A stretch of DNA of 64,000 nucleotides, taken from the NCBI RefSeq assembly GCF_040448675.1, contig NZ_CP159289.1, positions 5,253,001 through 5,317,000 on the forward strand, given 5' to 3'. Numbering within the stretch: the stretch's first letter is position 1; the number at the start of each line of letters is the position of its first letter. The notes beneath the pieces are model-generated. The model did no database searches. It saw nothing but the letters and a program-made list of their open reading frames with translations, and was not told the origin of the DNA. This stretch comes from Dyadobacter sp. 676. Lineage in GTDB: Bacteria > Bacteroidota > Bacteroidia > Cytophagales > Spirosomataceae. A program made the position numbers and the translations under genes. Of the stretch, positions 348 through 7,257 are shown piece after piece.

Positions 348-812
348 ATGGCAGGCAATCACAAACGTTTCAGCAAGGCACAGCAACTCTTATGGTTGAC
401 TATTCCGTTATTTTCCGTCATCATGTTCTCATGCAGCAATCACACGCATAAGAACGATGTCAAGCCGGAGGAGAAAATTTTCCCGGAAATCCATACCGGC
501 GTGGCGACCTTCCATCCGTTGGGCGGGGTCATCGAGACATTCAGCGTCAATTTTGACAAGACCGGCAACATTCCGATCGACGAATACGGCGTGGTGTATG
601 CTTTTTTGCCCGAAGCCACATCGGTTGACCTCGTGGTAGACGGGCCTTATCCAGCGGCGAAGTTTAAAGTGGCGGCGAAGGTGGGAGTCAACATCGAGTC
701 GTTTAAAATCGGCTTTCCTACGGGTATGCATGCGTTGTCCTACCGCGCTTATGTCAAACTGAAAGGCGGCGAGGTGCAGTATGCCGACAACCATTTTACC
801 AAAACCTATTAG
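348..812 (+). CDS. hypothetical lipoprotein, 154 aa
   Basis: The ATG at 348 is preferred to an upstream in-frame TTG at 327 because it places a basic N-terminus directly before a hydrophobic stretch (LLWLTIPLFSVIMFSC), with Cys29 as a likely lipidation site; the lipobox is imperfect (M-F-S-C). The mature part is small, rich in beta-prone residues, and contains VNFDKTGNIPIDEYGVVYAFL. I do not recognise a named family. It follows the mannanase by 90 bases, so it may belong to the same polysaccharide-use or surface locus. Its stop codon overlaps by four bases that of the convergent zinc-ribbon gene. Confidence 0.6.
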   Translation: MAGNHKRFSKAQQLLWLTIPLFSVIMFSCSNHTHKNDVKPEEKIFPEIHTGVATFHPLGGVIETFSVNFDKTGNIPIDEYGVVYAFLPEATSVDLVVDGPYPAAKFKVAAKVGVNIESFKIGFPTGMHALSYRAYVKLKGGEVQYADNHFTKTY

Positions 813-1258
813 TCCTGCGCCACGCGATCCTGAAACTTCCTGCTGACCAAATGGTAGTTGAATAGCTCCACCAGATCGATCAGCACGGTGTTCGGGTCGT
901 TGGCGTTCAGGTAAGTGCGTACTTTCCGGATAAAGTCGTAAAGCGGCTCGTAGTATTTGTGACCGGTTTCTTCCTGGAAATCCTGGATTGTGAACGCACT
1001 CCCTTTTTTCAGGATCATATATACCGCGATAAAGAAGTAGGAGATCGGAAGTTTGCTGCCTTCGAGCACGGTCCCGCTTTGCAAGGTAGTCCGGAACCTG
1101 CATCGCTTGCATTGAAACTGCTGCTTCGGCGCGAGCCAGTAATGATGCGTTCCGCCGCATTTCTTGCAGACGATCCCCCGCCTTAACCTGAAATCCTTGA
1201 ATGCCTCTGTAGCGATGGTTTCGTTCTTGTAAATGTCGATCAGATTGCCCGCCTGCAT
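809..1258 (-). CDS. stand-alone IS1595-type transposase zinc-ribbon protein, 149 aa
   Basis: The N-terminal half has the zinc ribbon found at the start of IS1595 (ISXO2-like) transposases: a CKKC knuckle, then THHYWL, a second CKRC knuckle, and the following RTTLQSGTVLEGSKLPIS segment. In a transposase a DDE-type nuclease of about 200 residues would follow. Here the protein instead ends about 80 residues later in a helical tail (YEPLYDFIRKVRTYL...LIDLVELFNYHLVSRKF), and no catalytic domain is encoded downstream. The ATG at 1258 is preferred over one at 1285 because the zinc-ribbon domain begins just after it. It is either a domesticated DNA-binding protein or an IS remnant; the open frame and clean stop favour a maintained gene. 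Confidence 0.6.
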   Translation of the reverse strand: MQAGNLIDIYKNETIATEAFKDFRLRRGIVCKKCGGTHHYWLAPKQQFQCKRCRFRTTLQSGTVLEGSKLPISYFFIAVYMILKKGSAFTIQDFQEETGHKYYEPLYDFIRKVRTYLNANDPNTVLIDLVELFNYHLVSRKFQDRVAQD

Positions 1259-1285
1259 AATGAAATAATAGATTGAGATGCCCAA

Positions 1286-1396: not shown

Positions 1397-1882
1397 ATGA
1401 GCCAAATGTTGGTAGGGAAATCGGCGGTTTCCGCAAAGAATATTACCGGAACCGGACCAGTCAGCGGCGAATCCTGGTATAATCTATCGGCACCGGCCGG
1501 TCCGGCAAATAGGGAGGCGAAAGGCTGGTGGCAGGTTATGGATTTCTTTAAGTGCCTGATTACGCCGCGCTGGCTTATGCATTTGTTGAACTGGATTCCG
1601 GTAGAGTCCGGCGTGTACCGTCTGAACAAAGTGAAGGAAGGCAGTACGGCGGAAGTGGACTGCTCACGGCGCGACGAGCGCGAACTGCCGCATACCTTTA
1701 TCGACTACGTCGAGAACCCGCGCGAATACAATCTGACGGCCGTGAACACGGTGCTGGATGTGCATACCCGCGTTTCGGATTTGTACAGCAAGCCGTATAA
1801 CCAGATCAGCGAACAATTGCGCCTGACGATCGAGAGTATAAGGAACGGCAGAAGAGCGAACTGATCAACAATCAGGAATGGC
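1397..1882 (+). pseudogene. family 2A encapsulin shell protein (SrpI-like), truncated and frameshifted
   Basis: The frame from 1397 carries motifs of family 2A encapsulin shells, the protein nanocompartments that package cysteine desulfurase: ITPRWLMHLLNWIPVESG, YRLNKVKEG, DERELPHTFIDYVENPREY, AVNTVLDVHTRVSDLYSKP and EQLRLTIESI. The frame stops at 1864, but after loss of one base near 1838 the text continues as KERQKSELINNQEW in the next frame, exactly what follows in this family. The remaining part of a roughly 300-residue shell protein, including most of the axial and peripheral domains, is then absent and the sequence passes directly into the desulfurase. The gene therefore encodes at most about 160 residues of shell. 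This may be a real deletion or an assembly fault. Confidence 0.8.
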
Positions 1883-2950
1883 ATTCAATGCCGCAGCAAG
1901 CATACCGGCTTCGACCTGAGCGAGCCGCAAACAAGTCTGCTCGCTGGCCGCGCAACGGATGCCTACGAGGCTGCACGCGAGAAAGTAAGGGCCTTTGTGA
2001 ATGCCGGTTCGGGGAACGAGATCGTTTTTGTACGGGGAACCACGGAGGCAATCAACCTGGTTGCCAAAACCTGGGGCGACCAGCATCTGCAAGCGGGCGA
2101 CGAAATCATCATAAGCCATCTTGAACACCACGCCAATATTGTTCCCTGGAAGCAGCTGGCTGATAAAAAGGGAACCGTGTTGCGGGTAATCCCCGTGGAC
2201 GACGACCGCCAGATTTTGCTCGATGCTTACGCCGATCTTTTAAATTCCAAAACCAAACTTGTTTCGTTTACGCAGGTTTCGAATGCGTTGGGGACCGTAA
2301 CGCCCTCTTCGGACATCATCCGCAAGGCCCACGCGGCGGGCGCGAAAGTTTTGCTGGACGGCGCTCAATCCGTTTTTCACATGCGTACCGACGTCACCGC
2401 GCTCGACTGCGACTGGTTTGTGTTTTCGGGGCATAAAGTTTTCGGCCCGACGGGTATTGGGGCGTTGTACGGGAAGGAGGATATTCTCAATGCAACCCAG
2501 CCGTGGCAGGGACGGTGCAATATGATTGTCGACGTTACATTCGACCACATTCAGTACCATAGTGACCCGTCGCGGTTCGAGGCGGGTACCGGTAACATCG
2601 CTGACGCGGTTGGGCTCAGTGCGGCATTGGATTATGTGACCCGCCTCGGCATCGAAAACATCTGCAACTACGAAAGTTTCCTGCTCGAATATGCCACCGG
2701 GTTGATCAGACACGTTCCCGGATTGCGCCTGATTGGCACAGCAAAACATAAGGCATCGGTGTTATCATTCGTTCTGGACGGATATAAAACGGGAGAGGTA
2801 GGCGCGGCGCTTAACAAGGAAGGCATTGCCGTGCGCTCCGGGCACCACTGCGCACAGCCTATTCTCCGGAGGTTCGGCCTGGAAACCGCGCCCCGCCGTT
2901 ATGTTGCTTTTTTGCATAACTTGGGGCATGTCTGCATTTGTCGACCGTAA
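1883..2950 (+). pseudogene. cysteine desulfurase (SufS/CsdA type, encapsulin cargo), truncated at both ends
   Basis: The class V aminotransferase core is clear from AYEAAREKVRAFVN onward: EIVFVRGTTEAINLVA, SHLEHHANIVPW, VSFTQVSNALGT, LLDGAQSV, FSGHKVFGPTGIGALYG (the Lys that binds pyridoxal phosphate) and VRSGHHCAQPILRRFG (the Cys that takes sulfur from cysteine). The N-terminal part that normally holds the DNAAT motif is missing, and the frame upstream of 1980 joins a short unrelated-looking stretch (TGFDLSEPQTSL) to the encapsulin remnant. The C-terminus also departs from the family after RRFGLETA, probably through a shift into the frame of the next gene. Family 2A encapsulins are known to enclose such desulfurases, so the pairing supports both calls. 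As written, the protein would not be functional. Confidence 0.8.
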
Positions 2951-4898
2951 TACTATCAAGTTGCTGAGAATCCCGTTCTCGTTTTTCCTGGCACCGCTGT
3001 TTCTCTTCGCATACAGCCAGGCCGAAACGGTGATGCACAGGCAGGCGTTGTGGAGCTTTCTGATCATCCATTTCCTTGTATACCCTGCCAGCAACGGTTA
3101 CAACAGCTACATCGACCGCGATGAGGAGAGCATCGGCGGGCTCGAAAAACCGCCCCTTCCCACCGTTCGCCTTTTTTACCTTACGCTTTTTCTCGATGCC
3201 CTCGCAACCGTCCTGGCTTTCGTTTTCGTAAATGCGTTATTCGCGCTATGTCTGGTGCTGTATATCGCCGCGTCACGAGCATACAGCTCGCGGCAGATCA
3301 GGTTGAAAAAGTATCCGGTTGCCGGGTTTCTGACCGTGGTAGTTTTTCAGGGCGCATTTACCTACTATATGTCGATGGCCGGCATTTCGGGCGCTGCGTT
3401 ACGGCTCGATACGGCCAATATCTTCGTATTGATGGGGTGTTCTTTCCAGATCGCGGGCGCATACCCGCTCACGCAGGTGTACCAGCATGAGCAGGACCTG
3501 CGCGACGGCATTGTTACATTGAGTTATAAACTGGGCTACATCGGCACTTTCGTGTTTACGGCCGCCATGTTTTTACTCTGCAATATGTTTTATTATTTGT
3601 ACTTTACAACCAGGGAACTTGGAATGATTTTTTACATTGTCCAGGTATTTTTCATCCCCATCGTGATATGGTTCGGGATCTGGTTTTCGCTGGTATGGAA
3701 AGACCGCCGGCAAGCCAATTTCCGCAATACGATGCGGATGAATTGGGTGGCGGCGATTTGCATGAATAGTTGTTTCATCGTTTTAATTATTATCAACAGA
3801 ATTCCATTGAGTTACTTATCCTCTATTGAAACAGCCGTTCCCGAATATGGTTATGCACAGGAAACGCTCACCGATTTCTACCTGCGATCGACCGATGACC
3901 CGGTGGTCCGCCGCAAGATCAGGATCGTCGCCGGCAAAACGGGTATTGAAAAGCGCTATTCCGTAATCCCCGATTTCGATAAGGACCCCAGCGAGTTCGA
4001 ATTTTTTAGCCGCAACGTCGATTTGCTGCCCGAGCCTACGCTCTCGGAAAGGATGCAACTTTACCAAAAGCATGCGACGGCGCTTTCGAGGAGGGCCGTC
4101 GGGCAAATCCCCGGTTTTGAAACTATCAGTAAGAACATCACCCATTTGATTACCGTCACCTGCACGGGACTGTTTGCGCCCGGCCTGGACGTCGAACTTA
4201 TGCGCGAGTTGAAGCTTAATCCGTCCATCGAGCGCAGCAGCGTCAATTTCATGGGCTGCAATGCGGCTATACTGGCATTACGGAATGCTGATGCCATTTG
4301 TAAAAGCAATGCCCATGCCAAAGTGCTGGTTGTTTGTACAGAGCTTTGTTCGATCCATTTTCAAAAGAGATACAACGACGATTACCTGCTTTCCAACATG
4401 ATTTTTGGCGACGGAGCGGCCGCATTACTGGTATCGTCGCAGCCCGACGAGCGTTACCTGCACGCGGTGAAGATCGACGGTTTTAATTCCATGGTGCTGC
4501 ACAATGGCTACTCGGATATGGCCTGGCAACTCTCGGAGACCGGTTTTATCATGAATCTCTCCTCGTATGTGCCCGATCTGATCCGGGAGAATATCGGGCC
4601 GATGCTCGGGGCGGTTGGGCTGAAAGCGGAGGACTACCGGCACTGGGCCGTGCACCCGGGCGGAAAACGTATCGTGGACGACTTCGCGGCGGCATTGGAG
4701 TTGGACAAATGTCTGCTTGGGCCCACCTATAACGTGTTGAAAAATTACGGAAACATGTCCTCGCCAACCGTGCTGTTTGTCCTGAAAGAAGTTCTCGAAA
4801 AAGCGACACCGGCGCATTTGGGCAACCGCATATTTGCGGCGGCCTTCGGTCCGGGACTAAGTATCGAAACAATGCAGTTGCGTTATGTTCAGGCATAG
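2928..4898 (+). CDS. fusion of UbiA-family prenyltransferase and type III polyketide synthase, 656 aa
   Basis: The ATG at 2928 gives the usual UbiA start (MSAFVDRNTIKLLRIPFSFF). Residues 1-290 are a multi-helix membrane domain with the first Asp-rich motif NGYNSYIDRDEES and the second motif YPLTQVYQHEQD, as in aromatic prenyltransferases. Without any stop the frame passes at residues 290-296 (INRIPLS) into a complete chalcone-synthase-fold enzyme beginning SYLSSIETAVPEYG. It carries Cys412 in TVTCTGLFAPG, His576 in WAVHPGGKR and Asn609 in NYGNMSSP, the Cys-His-Asn triad of type III PKS. Each half has the length of a free-standing enzyme, and a TTG at 3807 could in principle start the second. 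The methyltransferase start overlaps its stop by 14 bases. An alkylresorcinol or alkylpyrone product that is prenylated or membrane-delivered is inferred. Confidence 0.8.
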   Translation: MSAFVDRNTIKLLRIPFSFFLAPLFLFAYSQAETVMHRQALWSFLIIHFLVYPASNGYNSYIDRDEESIGGLEKPPLPTVRLFYLTLFLDALATVLAFVFVNALFALCLVLYIAASRAYSSRQIRLKKYPVAGFLTVVVFQGAFTYYMSMAGISGAALRLDTANIFVLMGCSFQIAGAYPLTQVYQHEQDLRDGIVTLSYKLGYIGTFVFTAAMFLLCNMFYYLYFTTRELGMIFYIVQVFFIPIVIWFGIWFSLVWKDRRQANFRNTMRMNWVAAICMNSCFIVLIIINRIPLSYLSSIETAVPEYGYAQETLTDFYLRSTDDPVVRRKIRIVAGKTGIEKRYSVIPDFDKDPSEFEFFSRNVDLLPEPTLSERMQLYQKHATALSRRAVGQIPGFETISKNITHLITVTCTGLFAPGLDVELMRELKLNPSIERSSVNFMGCNAAILALRNADAICKSNAHAKVLVVCTELCSIHFQKRYNDDYLLSNMIFGDGAAALLVSSQPDERYLHAVKIDGFNSMVLHNGYSDMAWQLSETGFIMNLSSYVPDLIRENIGPMLGAVGLKAEDYRHWAVHPGGKRIVDDFAAALELDKCLLGPTYNVLKNYGNMSSPTVLFVLKEVLEKATPAHLGNRIFAAAFGPGLSIETMQLRYVQA

Positions 4899-5580
4899 AA
4901 GCTTGCAAAAGGAGTTGCTCGATGCGGATGATATCCCGTCGGCAGACCTGTTTCAAAACCTGAAAGAACTGGATTTTATTAATCACCGGCTCGGTGGCTA
5001 CGGCATTTCCTTTGGCGCGTTGAAGAAGGTGCTGCAAAAAGGCAGACGGTATTCGCTCGTCGACATTGGCTGCGGCGGGGGCGACACGCTGAAACGCATT
5101 GCCGGCTGGAACAAAGCGGCCGGTTTTGACGTCTTTCTCTACGGCGTCGACCTTAAACCGGATTGTATTGCCTACGCCGAAGAAAACCTGAAAGACACAG
5201 GCGTGACGCTTATTTGTGATGATTTCCGCAATATGTACAGGTATATTCAACAGATCGATATCATCCATGCCTGCCTTTTTTGTCACCACCTTACCAACGA
5301 CGAGCTGATAGGACTAATCCGGTTTGCATTGAGCAACCGGGCGATTCTGGTGATCAATGATCTGGAAAGAAACCCTTTGGCGCATTATTCGATCAAAATA
5401 CTTACCCGTCTTTTTTCGAAATCATACCTTGTCAAAAACGACGCGCCGTTGTCCGTTTTACGTGGGTTTAAAAAGCGGGAATGGCTGGACCTGTTGAGGC
5501 GGGCCGGTGCCGGCCGTTTTACGGTGCGCAATAAATGGGCATTCAGGCATGAAGTGATCGTTTATGGAAACGTGGACTAA
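4885..5580 (+). CDS. class I SAM-dependent methyltransferase of the type III PKS locus, 231 aa
   Basis: Motif I is VDIGCGGGDTLKRIAG (about residues 59-74), followed by an acidic strand end FLYGVDLKPD and a post-I CDDFRN segment, the normal order of a Rossmann methyltransferase. The start codon lies inside the end of the PKS gene and the stop lies inside the start of the flavoprotein gene, so the three are very probably translationally coupled. A PKS-methyltransferase-flavoprotein trio recalls the Streptomyces griseus srsABC genes, which make methylated alkylresorcinols and quinones. Methylation of the PKS product is therefore the likely role, but whether O- or C-methylation cannot be told from sequence. 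Confidence 0.75.
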   Translation: MFRHRSLQKELLDADDIPSADLFQNLKELDFINHRLGGYGISFGALKKVLQKGRRYSLVDIGCGGGDTLKRIAGWNKAAGFDVFLYGVDLKPDCIAYAEENLKDTGVTLICDDFRNMYRYIQQIDIIHACLFCHHLTNDELIGLIRFALSNRAILVINDLERNPLAHYSIKILTRLFSKSYLVKNDAPLSVLRGFKKREWLDLLRRAGAGRFTVRNKWAFRHEVIVYGNVD

Positions 5581-6703
5581 CTATTTTGAATGTGCGGTTA
5601 TCGGCGGCGGGGTAGCGGGGTTATGCCTGGCGATCCAGCTGGCGGACCGGGGCAACCGCGTAGTCGTGTTTGAAAAAGGCAGGTACCCTTTTCACAAGGT
5701 TTGCGGGGAATATATTTCAATGGAGAGCCGGCCGTTTCTGGAAAGTCTCGGACTGCCGCTTTCCGAAATGGCATTGCCGGAAATCAATAGCCTGGGTATT
5801 AGTTCGGAGCGCGGATTTATGCTTCGTCACCCGCTGGAAACAGGCGGTTTCGGGATCAGCCGGTATAGTCTGGATAGCCATCTTTTTACTATCGCCTTAC
5901 GCAAAGGCGTGCATGCGATGCAGGAATGCCGGGTTACCGGTGTGGAGGGTAACCCGACGGACGGTTTTCAGCTCCATACCACGGCAGGGGTTTTCGCTTC
6001 AAAGGTCGTTTGCGGGAGTTATGGTAAATATGCGCCGCAATTTATCCAGTCGGATGAAAACGTCGTGTCAAGGAGCGGCGATCAGAATTATATAGGTGTT
6101 AAATACCATATCAAAACGGATTTGGCCTCCAATCGTATCGAACTGCATAATTTTTCGAACGGCTACTGCGGCATTTCGAAAGTCGATCGCGACTGGTATT
6201 GCCTTTGCTACCTCACCACCGCGCGGAATCTGCTTGAAAATGGAAAGGATGTGAAGCAAATGGAGGAGCGGGTCTTGTGCCGGAACCCTTTTTTGAAACA
6301 TTACTTTACAAATTCGGCGTTCGTGCATGCGCAGCCGTTGGTGATCAGTAACGTGCATTTCAGCAAAAAACAAACCGATTCGGGCGGCATTTTCCTGCTG
6401 GGCGACGCGGCGGGGGCGATTACCCCCCTTTGCGGAAACGGAATGAGCATGGGCATGCGGGCCTCCAAATTGCTGGCGGAGCAGCTTTCCCTGCTTTTCG
6501 ATGGAAAACAAACGTACGTGCAGGCCCTGAAAAACTATCGTCATGCCTGGAATACGACATTCGGGGCGAGGATCAGGGCCGGTTACCACCTTCAAAAACT
6601 CTTCGGGAAAAGCCTGACGACCGACCTGGCATTGAAATTTCTCGACAAAACGCCCCGGCTGACCACGAAGCTCATTTCCCTCACACACGGACCGGCGTTT
6701 TAG
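5564..6703 (+). CDS. FAD-dependent oxidoreductase, geranylgeranyl-reductase-like, 379 aa
   Basis: The N-terminus has the dinucleotide-binding turn CAVIGGGVAGLCLAIQLA and an acidic second-strand end (VVVFEKGRYP), followed by KVCGEY, a typical feature of the geranylgeranyl reductase/FixC branch. The second FAD motif is LLGDAAGAITPLCGNGMSMG near residue 285. Enzymes of this fold either hydroxylate aromatic rings or reduce isoprenoid double bonds. In this operon both are plausible: ring hydroxylation of an alkylresorcinol, as srsC does, or reduction of a prenyl chain added by the UbiA half. The gene overlaps the methyltransferase by 17 bases and ends tail-to-tail with idi, sharing four bases. Confidence 0.75.
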   Translation: METWTNYFECAVIGGGVAGLCLAIQLADRGNRVVVFEKGRYPFHKVCGEYISMESRPFLESLGLPLSEMALPEINSLGISSERGFMLRHPLETGGFGISRYSLDSHLFTIALRKGVHAMQECRVTGVEGNPTDGFQLHTTAGVFASKVVCGSYGKYAPQFIQSDENVVSRSGDQNYIGVKYHIKTDLASNRIELHNFSNGYCGISKVDRDWYCLCYLTTARNLLENGKDVKQMEERVLCRNPFLKHYFTNSAFVHAQPLVISNVHFSKKQTDSGGIFLLGDAAGAITPLCGNGMSMGMRASKLLAEQLSLLFDGKQTYVQALKNYRHAWNTTFGARIRAGYHLQKLFGKSLTTDLALKFLDKTPRLTTKLISLTHGPAF

Positions 6704-7257
6704 AATGTTTCGTTGTTGCCCGGTTCCAGTTTTCGGGCGATTACCGGCATACAAATCTTAAACCATTCGGTATAGACGTGCGGGTTCTGCGCAATATCCG
6801 CCTCGATTTCCGGCATTGTCAGATACTTGTAATCACTGACTTCGGCAGGGTCGATGACGGGCGTTTCGTCCGAAACGCCGTAGAATACGTGGTCGAGTTC
6901 GTGTTCGGTGAGGCCGTTTTCAAGATCGGCGCGGTACCGGAAAGTATACAGGAATTTCAGGTCTGCTTCGATCCCCATTTCCTCGCGCAGCCGCCGTACG
7001 GCGCCTTCGTGCACCGCTTCACCGGGAAATGGGTGGCTGCAACAGGTGTTCGACCACAGGCCTTCCGAGTGGTATTTGCCGAACGCCCGCCGTTGTAGCA
7101 GCATTTCGTTTCTCGAATTAAAAATAAACACTGAAAATGCACGGTGCAGTACGCCTTTTTCATGGGCTTCGAGCTTGGGCATCAGGCCGATAGCCTCGTC
7201 ATTTTCGGTTACCAGCACAACTTGGTCATTCATAGGATGGTGGGTTTCAGGTTCCAT
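6700..7257 (-). CDS. idi: isopentenyl-diphosphate delta-isomerase, type I
   Basis: This Nudix-fold enzyme interconverts isopentenyl and dimethylallyl diphosphate. The catalytic Cys is in LWSNTCCSHPFPGE and the catalytic Glu in LTEHELDHVFYG; the Nudix-like helix REEMGIEADL is also present. At 185 residues it has the normal length. ATG at 7257 or the internal ATG at 7233 (MNDQVVLVTE) may be the true start; the latter fits homologues better. It converges on the flavoprotein gene, so it is not in the same transcript as the PKS locus, but its product could supply prenyl precursors for the UbiA domain. Confidence 0.9.
   Translation of the reverse strand: MEPETHHPMNDQVVLVTENDEAIGLMPKLEAHEKGVLHRAFSVFIFNSRNEMLLQRRAFGKYHSEGLWSNTCCSHPFPGEAVHEGAVRRLREEMGIEADLKFLYTFRYRADLENGLTEHELDHVFYGVSDETPVIDPAEVSDYKYLTMPEIEADIAQNPHVYTEWFKICMPVIARKLEPGNNETF

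Follow-up and report, generated by a model that had tools for sequence, protein, structure and literature searches.

A gene fusion is often taken to indicate that the proteins it joins act as one, the 'Rosetta stone' view, and fusions in which a UbiA part lies at the C-terminus of IspH have been given that name (PMC4746011). In the Steely hybrid synthases of Dictyostelium, a type III polyketide synthase (PKS) is joined to a fatty acid synthase (PMC9489281), and in the loseolamycin cluster a UbiA-family prenyltransferase, a methyltransferase and a type III PKS are near neighbours (PMC7587189). In Haloferax volcanii, Cas11b is made from cas8b by internal in-frame translation, as shown by experiment (PMC11899642).

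Here, we analyse a stretch of 64,000 nucleotides from Dyadobacter sp. 676 (contig NZ_CP159289.1, positions 5,253,001 to 5,317,000), referred to below as the window, in which a UbiA prenyltransferase and a type III PKS share one frame. The features of the gene, in window coordinates, are as follows.

2928..4898, plus strand: UbiA-PKS fused gene, a stop-free frame of 656 codons (656 residues in translation)
2928..3803, plus strand: UbiA prenyltransferase domain, residues 1-292, nine transmembrane helices
3093..3131, plus strand: first Asp-rich motif, NGYNSYIDRDEES, residues 56-68; N56, N59, D63 and D65 invariant in 65 aligned sequences
3480..3509, plus strand: second Asp-rich motif, YQHEQDLRDG, residues 185-194; Y185, H187 and D190 invariant in 65 sequences
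3720..3800, plus strand: last UbiA transmembrane helix, residues 265-291, with the PKS directly after it (from predicted structure and charges)
3787..3806, plus strand: presumed translation initiation region upstream of TTG; A at -6 and -12, no ATG, low GC3, predicted open
3807..3812, plus strand: TTG AGT at the junction, the inferred PKS start and second codon in split relatives; each codon present in 32/32 fused genomes
3807..4898, plus strand: type III PKS domain, corresponding as well to the presumed free 363-residue PKS

A first-pass annotation, made from the letters alone, had described this frame as a UbiA prenyltransferase running into a type III PKS with an intact Cys-His-Asn triad, and this description holds for the full 656 residues. 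Pfam places UbiA (PF01040) at residues 23-271 (E 6.2e-15), Chal_sti_synt_N (PF00195) at residues 298-506 (E 8.5e-28; 97.8 bits, cut-off 27) and Chal_sti_synt_C (PF02797) at residues 524-654 (E 3e-21; 76.5 bits, cut-off 27). C444, H576 and N609 (window 4257, 4653 and 4752), the catalytic triad of a type III PKS, are invariant in all 45 Dyadobacter PKS compared. Both Asp-rich motifs of the UbiA family are present, in variant forms. Fold tests recover the nine-helix UbiA fold in the first part and a thiolase-like fold in the PKS part, with the Steely hybrid synthase structure from Dictyostelium (2h84) as a structural match; the UbiA fold is matched clearly even though the UbiA profile finds nothing at E 1 among PDB sequences. 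The window's genome has one other match only (E 2.6e-5), as would be expected of a distant ketoacyl synthase, and so shows no second type III PKS. A plasmid origin was considered and rejected, window 3500-4200 being without a match in the plasmid collection searched in near mode. Open frames of 109, 130 and 246 aa lie on the minus strand beneath the fused gene.

Proteins of the 656-residue type with both domains, which the first-pass annotation had suggested seeking in related genomes, turn out to be common within the genus. Among 48 Dyadobacter genomes, the window's own included, 32 carry the fused gene, 13 carry the pair as two separate genes side by side, and three (G008, G013, G026) lack the pair and give weak matches only. 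The 18 named Dyadobacter loci, largely the same strains as in the genus search, comprise 15 fused and three split. At least 56 further protein-database clusters span both domains and at least 96% of the query, counted among the best 120 of 814 matches; each fused-length cluster that bears an organism name is, among the matches listed, Dyadobacter. An assembly or sequencing error might be suspected on the ground that the fused frame differs from its split relatives by essentially one base, but the same frame recurs in those 32 of 48 genomes and in those 56 or more clusters (best 120 of 814 matches). Its recurrence across the genus rules out both chance and a sequencing error, and the probability that we attach to an error of either kind is negligible. 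As a separate observation, two of the genomes without the pair, G013 and G026, carry instead a distant methyltransferase-type III PKS pair of 28-30% identity (loci L046 and L047).

Relatives in the unfused state occur widely. Matches at E 1e-20 were obtained in 169 of 222 genomes of the family, Dyadobacter included, and at E 1e-70 in 72 of 395 genomes of the class. We read 49 loci (20 + 9 + 20) that are not labelled Dyadobacter, two of which (L086, L087) bear no title beyond 'Bacteroidetes bacterium'. In 33 of the 49 (L054, L057, L062, L063, L086-L094 and L095-L114), UbiA precedes the PKS on the same strand, and in 33/33 the two are separate genes. In two more (L055, L058) UbiA is located after the flavoprotein and is not fused, in seven (L056, L059, L060, L061, L065, L066, L067) it is on the strand opposite the PKS, and in seven (L048-L053, L064) no UbiA match was found. 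Two sets of candidates were checked and rejected: the 13 distant-genome matches that spanned both domains and looked like fusions outside Dyadobacter, since all 20 loci read, these included, have separate genes; and a long open frame in L057 (G142), which is no PKS-methyltransferase fusion.

How the fusion arose can be followed at the junction. In all 13 split Dyadobacter genomes, the UbiA stop TGA overlaps a TTG that is in frame with the PKS, giving TTGA; each of the 32 fused genomes has one additional base before the same TTG, which brings the two into a single frame. The junctions of fused G033 and split G037 differ by one inserted T in a T run, and G024 shows the same insertion plus substitutions. 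The overlap TTG is, we infer, the PKS start in split Dyadobacter. It is the first possible PKS start in four of the 13, the other nine having another in-frame TTG or GTG at least 30 bases upstream, within UbiA; and the PKS database proteins of five split genomes have 360-361 residues, as expected from the overlap TTG. A programmed frameshift in the split species was considered and set aside, as the sequence T TTT TTC precedes the UbiA stop in only three of 13 (L035, L037, L039). In these three, a -1 slip at T TTT TTC would yield the fused protein.

Because the outgroup genes are separate, the split state is ancestral, and the separation of all 33 co-oriented pairs outside Dyadobacter marks the fusion as derived. 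A protein tree of 49 rows requires no more than one change of state, the single-origin branch receiving weak support (71/46; 74% of 200 bootstrap trees); the outgroup of this tree consists of four rows, two of them on long branches. Thirty fused genomes form a well-supported clade (99/99), from which G033 and G024 stand apart. A single origin is the shortest, if weakly supported, account, with one or two origins to be reckoned with. No split genome lies inside the 30-genome clade, an indication that the fusion may have a use of its own. Read from the sequences, the fusion is a late, derived, one-base event in Dyadobacter.

Were the PKS made only within the fusion, any of the six Leu codons could be used at 3807. 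The junction TTG, whose homologue in 13/13 split Dyadobacter overlaps the UbiA stop, is in frame and stands ahead of a self-standing domain. TTG accounts for 21.5% of Leu codons in the fused genes, a figure that, like the other percentages given for the 32 fused genomes, comes from related and hence non-independent sequences. Among 37 invariant-Leu columns across these genomes, the junction is the only one with a single codon, and among 18 invariant-Ser columns the same is true of the adjoining AGT. On the tree, neither codon has undergone a synonymous change, against means of 11.57 for Leu columns and 9.17 for Ser columns; they are the only two of 65 invariant Leu, Ser or Arg columns (mean 11.0) without one. 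Over all 285 invariant degenerate columns, nine are unchanged: TTG and AGT, five two-fold columns (Q, Q, F, C, Y) and two four-fold columns (G, V). The Y and V, at codons +359/+360, form the other adjacent unchanged pair and coincide with the overlapping ATG of the methyltransferase, thereby providing a positive control. In the control genes, unchanged invariant degenerate columns number 0/100 in the methyltransferase and 0/81 in the part of the flavoprotein covered by the loci (0/28 and 0/22 for Leu, Ser and Arg columns). The 10-codon window with the least synonymous change, of 328, begins three codons before TTG, and so does the window of lowest GC3 (0.23, versus 0.562 for the gene). Finally, a 363-residue database protein from Dyadobacter sp. 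50-39 (P0058) has its N-terminus exactly at the junction TTG, and the DNA of the locus matched to it (L073) has the fused frame. Selection on the old start thus seems to have continued once the genes were fused. Behaving as it does like a conserved start codon, TTG 3807 implies that a free PKS is probably still made.

We also compared the surroundings of this TTG with what is reported for Flavobacterium johnsoniae, in which A at 0, -3, -6, -12 and -13 and little structure aid translation, and AUG is rare near the start (PMC6847099). A-6 is found in 94% of fused genes, versus 0% of split genes and a gene background of 28%; A-12 is found in 97%, versus 15% and 28%, the A at -12 being partly a mere consequence of the inserted base. 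The Arg codon three before TTG is AGA in 26 of 29 cases, whereas over the whole gene AGA makes up 13.5% of Arg codons. None of the 64 windows flanking TTG contains an ATG, compared with 31% of background windows. Predicted openness at TTG is 0.604 versus 0.468. On the other side, A-3 and A-13, both helpful bases, are absent in 32/32 fused genomes, openness ranks among the top 10% of positions within the same gene for only 22 of the 32 genes, and upstream AT content has a median upper tail of only 8%. TTG is a weak start. The context resembles a Bacteroidota start in part, which is supporting rather than decisive.

Which side of the membrane the fused PKS occupies bears directly on its function. 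An AlphaFold2 model of the fusion (mean pLDDT 90.7, pTM 0.73) has a helix at residues 265-291 and the first PKS strand at 296, and it places both Asp-rich motifs in loops that share a side with the helix 8-9 loop. The distribution of positive charge fits this arrangement: counts of K+R in the motif-side loops are 2.5, 2.0, 3.9, 2.5 and 3.4, and in the other loops and C-tail 0, 0, 0.9, 0.9 and 0.9, a comparison in which the motif-side loops are also longer and the first, with its Asp motif, holds 4.9 D+E and is net acidic. Prenyl diphosphates and CoA esters are cytosolic. A nine-helix UbiA-fold enzyme is described as having four periplasmic and four cytoplasmic loops (PMC10994848), which puts the termini on opposite sides; with the Asp motifs on the side of the helix 8-9 loop, the UbiA C-terminus falls on the other side. 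The fused PKS is accordingly predicted by the model to face the periplasm, opposite the UbiA active site and away from its CoA substrates. With the substrates cytosolic and the C-terminus directed outward, the fused PKS would be on the wrong side, a difficulty that a free PKS started at TTG would remove.

Two features near helix 9 were noted in passing. The net charge of the helix 8-9 loop is +2.16 (range 1-4) in fused and +0.92 (range 0-2) in split Dyadobacter, and in 30 of the 32 fused genomes the codon three before TTG, close to the end of helix 9, encodes R or K. The extra positive charge is perhaps a response to the added domain.

The first-pass annotation proposed that the fusion ties a soluble PKS to the membrane and to a prenyl donor. 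This now looks doubtful, as the nine-helix fold is predicted to set the C-terminus opposite the active site. In its strict form, the proposal would make the fusion the only working form, a membrane-tethered PKS passing its product to UbiA, with TTG-AGT a leftover or serving another RNA role. The 30-genome clade without a split member, the intactness of both domains and the near-constancy of the linker residues just before TTG (N 29, R 29, I 26 and P 32 of 32) are in keeping with it. It has to contend, however, with the predicted position of the C-terminus, with zero synonymous change exactly at the old start, and with relatives in which separate proteins encoded by the same genes suffice; we consider it unlikely. 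Nor are the enzymes dependent on the fusion, since 13 of 45 Dyadobacter pairs and all 33 other co-oriented pairs encode them separately.

It is also conceivable that the two forms coexist and each has a role, with free and fused PKS chains joining into mixed dimers at the cytosolic face and a last UbiA helix that is re-entrant or uninserted. Type III PKS works as a dimer, and the fused clade of 30 genomes, the R/K three codons before TTG and a C-tail K+R of 0.94, versus 0.38 in split genes, would suit such an arrangement. Against this, helix 9 is equally hydrophobic in both states (mean 1.87 in fused, 1.74 in split Dyadobacter) and the preceding loop is more positive in fused genes, favouring a normal outward crossing, so that mixed dimers strike us as quite improbable. 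If they did form, part of the PKS pool would be held at the membrane beside the prenyltransferase, giving a tunable membrane-bound synthase of prenylated polyketides that arose by a single inserted base, with the old start kept and re-tuned.

The genes that follow give some indication of the pathway. They are, in window coordinates:

4885..5580, plus strand: SAM methyltransferase, its ATG overlapping the PKS end; Pfam PF13847, best NCBIfam PRK06202, below cut-off
5564..6703, plus strand: FAD-dependent oxidoreductase of geranylgeranyl-reductase type; best NCBIfam TIGR02032, 82 bits, below the cut-off of 158.8
6700..7257, minus strand: isopentenyl-diphosphate isomerase, convergent; PRK03759 167.7 bits (cut-off 127), TIGR02150 129.5 (cut-off 105.8)

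The family matches and the comparison of loci bear out the earlier description of a locus with a methyltransferase, a flavoprotein and a convergent IPP isomerase. The methyltransferase starts 5 bases before the PKS stop codon in 21 of 32 genomes and 11 bases before it in the remaining 11. PKS, methyltransferase and flavoprotein (FAD) are adjacent in 45/45 Dyadobacter pair loci (L001-L045). With UbiA counted, all four genes are present in those 45, and 32 of the other 49 loci have the full set too; in 10 of these 49, the stretch covered contains no match at E 1e-6 to either the methyltransferase or the flavoprotein. The isomerase is convergent in 15/15 of L031-L045 and 18/18 of L068-L085, L001-L030 ending before the gene. 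A type III PKS, a methyltransferase and a flavoprotein also make up the srs-type phenolic lipid operon, and the same three kinds of gene are adjacent in Dyadobacter, a likeness by gene kind only. The four genes probably serve one Dyadobacter pathway leading to a prenylated, methylated aromatic or pyrone polyketide; that the product is a prenylated alkylresorcinol or alkylquinone is a guess. The database label 'naringenin-chalcone synthase' gives no ground for reading a product.

Upstream, window 1397-2950 holds remnants of the N-terminal part of a family 2A encapsulin (PF19307) and of a cysteine desulfurase cargo; the latter lacks the first ~320 of 623 profile positions, and its altered C-terminus runs into the UbiA start. 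At the matching place in D. jiangsuensis (L068, 2185-5823) there are open frames of 306, 639 and 266 aa, the first two by eye a whole encapsulin and a whole desulfurase, the third presumably a serine-acetyltransferase-like gene. As these genes are whole there, the window's strain seems to have suffered deletions just upstream of the fused gene. A short minus-strand open frame at window 812-1285, beside the encapsulin remnant, encodes an IS1595-type transposase zinc ribbon (PF12760) and is a possible agent of the deletion.

Taken together, these results lead us to favour, with reasonable confidence, a read-through fusion accompanied by a free, working PKS started at the internal TTG, the PKS part of the fusion being predicted to lie outside the cytoplasm. 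In this scheme, ubiA and the type III PKS gene, neighbours in a Bacteroidota operon, once overlapped as TTGA, and in an ancestor of most Dyadobacter a base inserted just before the overlap removed the UbiA stop and created one frame, as the comparison of genomes shows. By sequence, ribosomes starting at UbiA now make the 656-residue fusion; a second set, to judge from the conservation of codon and context, would start at the old TTG and make a free cytosolic PKS of 363 residues. By family, this PKS would be expected to condense acyl-CoA and malonyl-CoA into a product to which UbiA would add a prenyl group and the methyltransferase a methyl group, and which the flavoprotein would reduce or oxidise. 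Outside the cytoplasm, the fused PKS is predicted to be inactive or broken down, except in the event that the last helix fails to span the membrane. That one gene gives two products seems more likely than that it encodes a purpose-built tethered enzyme.

In the open-licence PMC literature, we found no description of a UbiA-type III PKS fusion; nor did we find there any described pathway with the fused protein, in agreement with the first-pass annotation, which knew of none. A soil metagenome survey (PMC9245906) is the only paper found there to mention 'Dyadobacter' together with 'type III polyketide'. EboC/Ubi-297 was considered as a counterpart and set aside, being a UbiA of a different operon (PMC9235831). 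The present case may be of more general use. Fused and split states stand side by side in sister species, with the single-base step visible, and the 32 fused and 13 split genomes form a natural set for studying the fusion of overlapping genes. The fused open frame in the databases probably conceals a second, functional protein, and membrane topology speaks against the obvious, tethered reading. The work also marks a recurrent Bacteroidota gene set for prenylated polyketides, likewise without a description found in open-licence PMC.

How, then, does UbiA-PKS relate to the systems described earlier? The loseolamycin cluster differs in that its genes are separate and belong to an actinobacterium, there is an acyl-CoA dehydrogenase, and the listed order is another. 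In the Steely synthases, as in UbiA-PKS, a larger natural protein ends in a type III PKS domain, but the partner is a fatty acid synthase, not a prenyltransferase, and an internal start is not mentioned in the text consulted (PMC9489281). The IspH-UbiA fusions likewise join a UbiA-like membrane prenyltransferase to a soluble enzyme of related metabolism; there the soluble enzyme comes first, whereas in UbiA-PKS it comes last, on the predicted outer side, with its old start codon retained. In Cas8b/Cas11b, one gene yields a long protein and a separate part from an internal in-frame start, as UbiA-PKS would too. The start of Cas11b is a Met established by experiment, while that of UbiA-PKS is a putative TTG start read from the sequence; and, unlike Cas8b, UbiA-PKS combines two operon enzymes, has a membrane protein in front, and has a split ancestor still visible in sister species.
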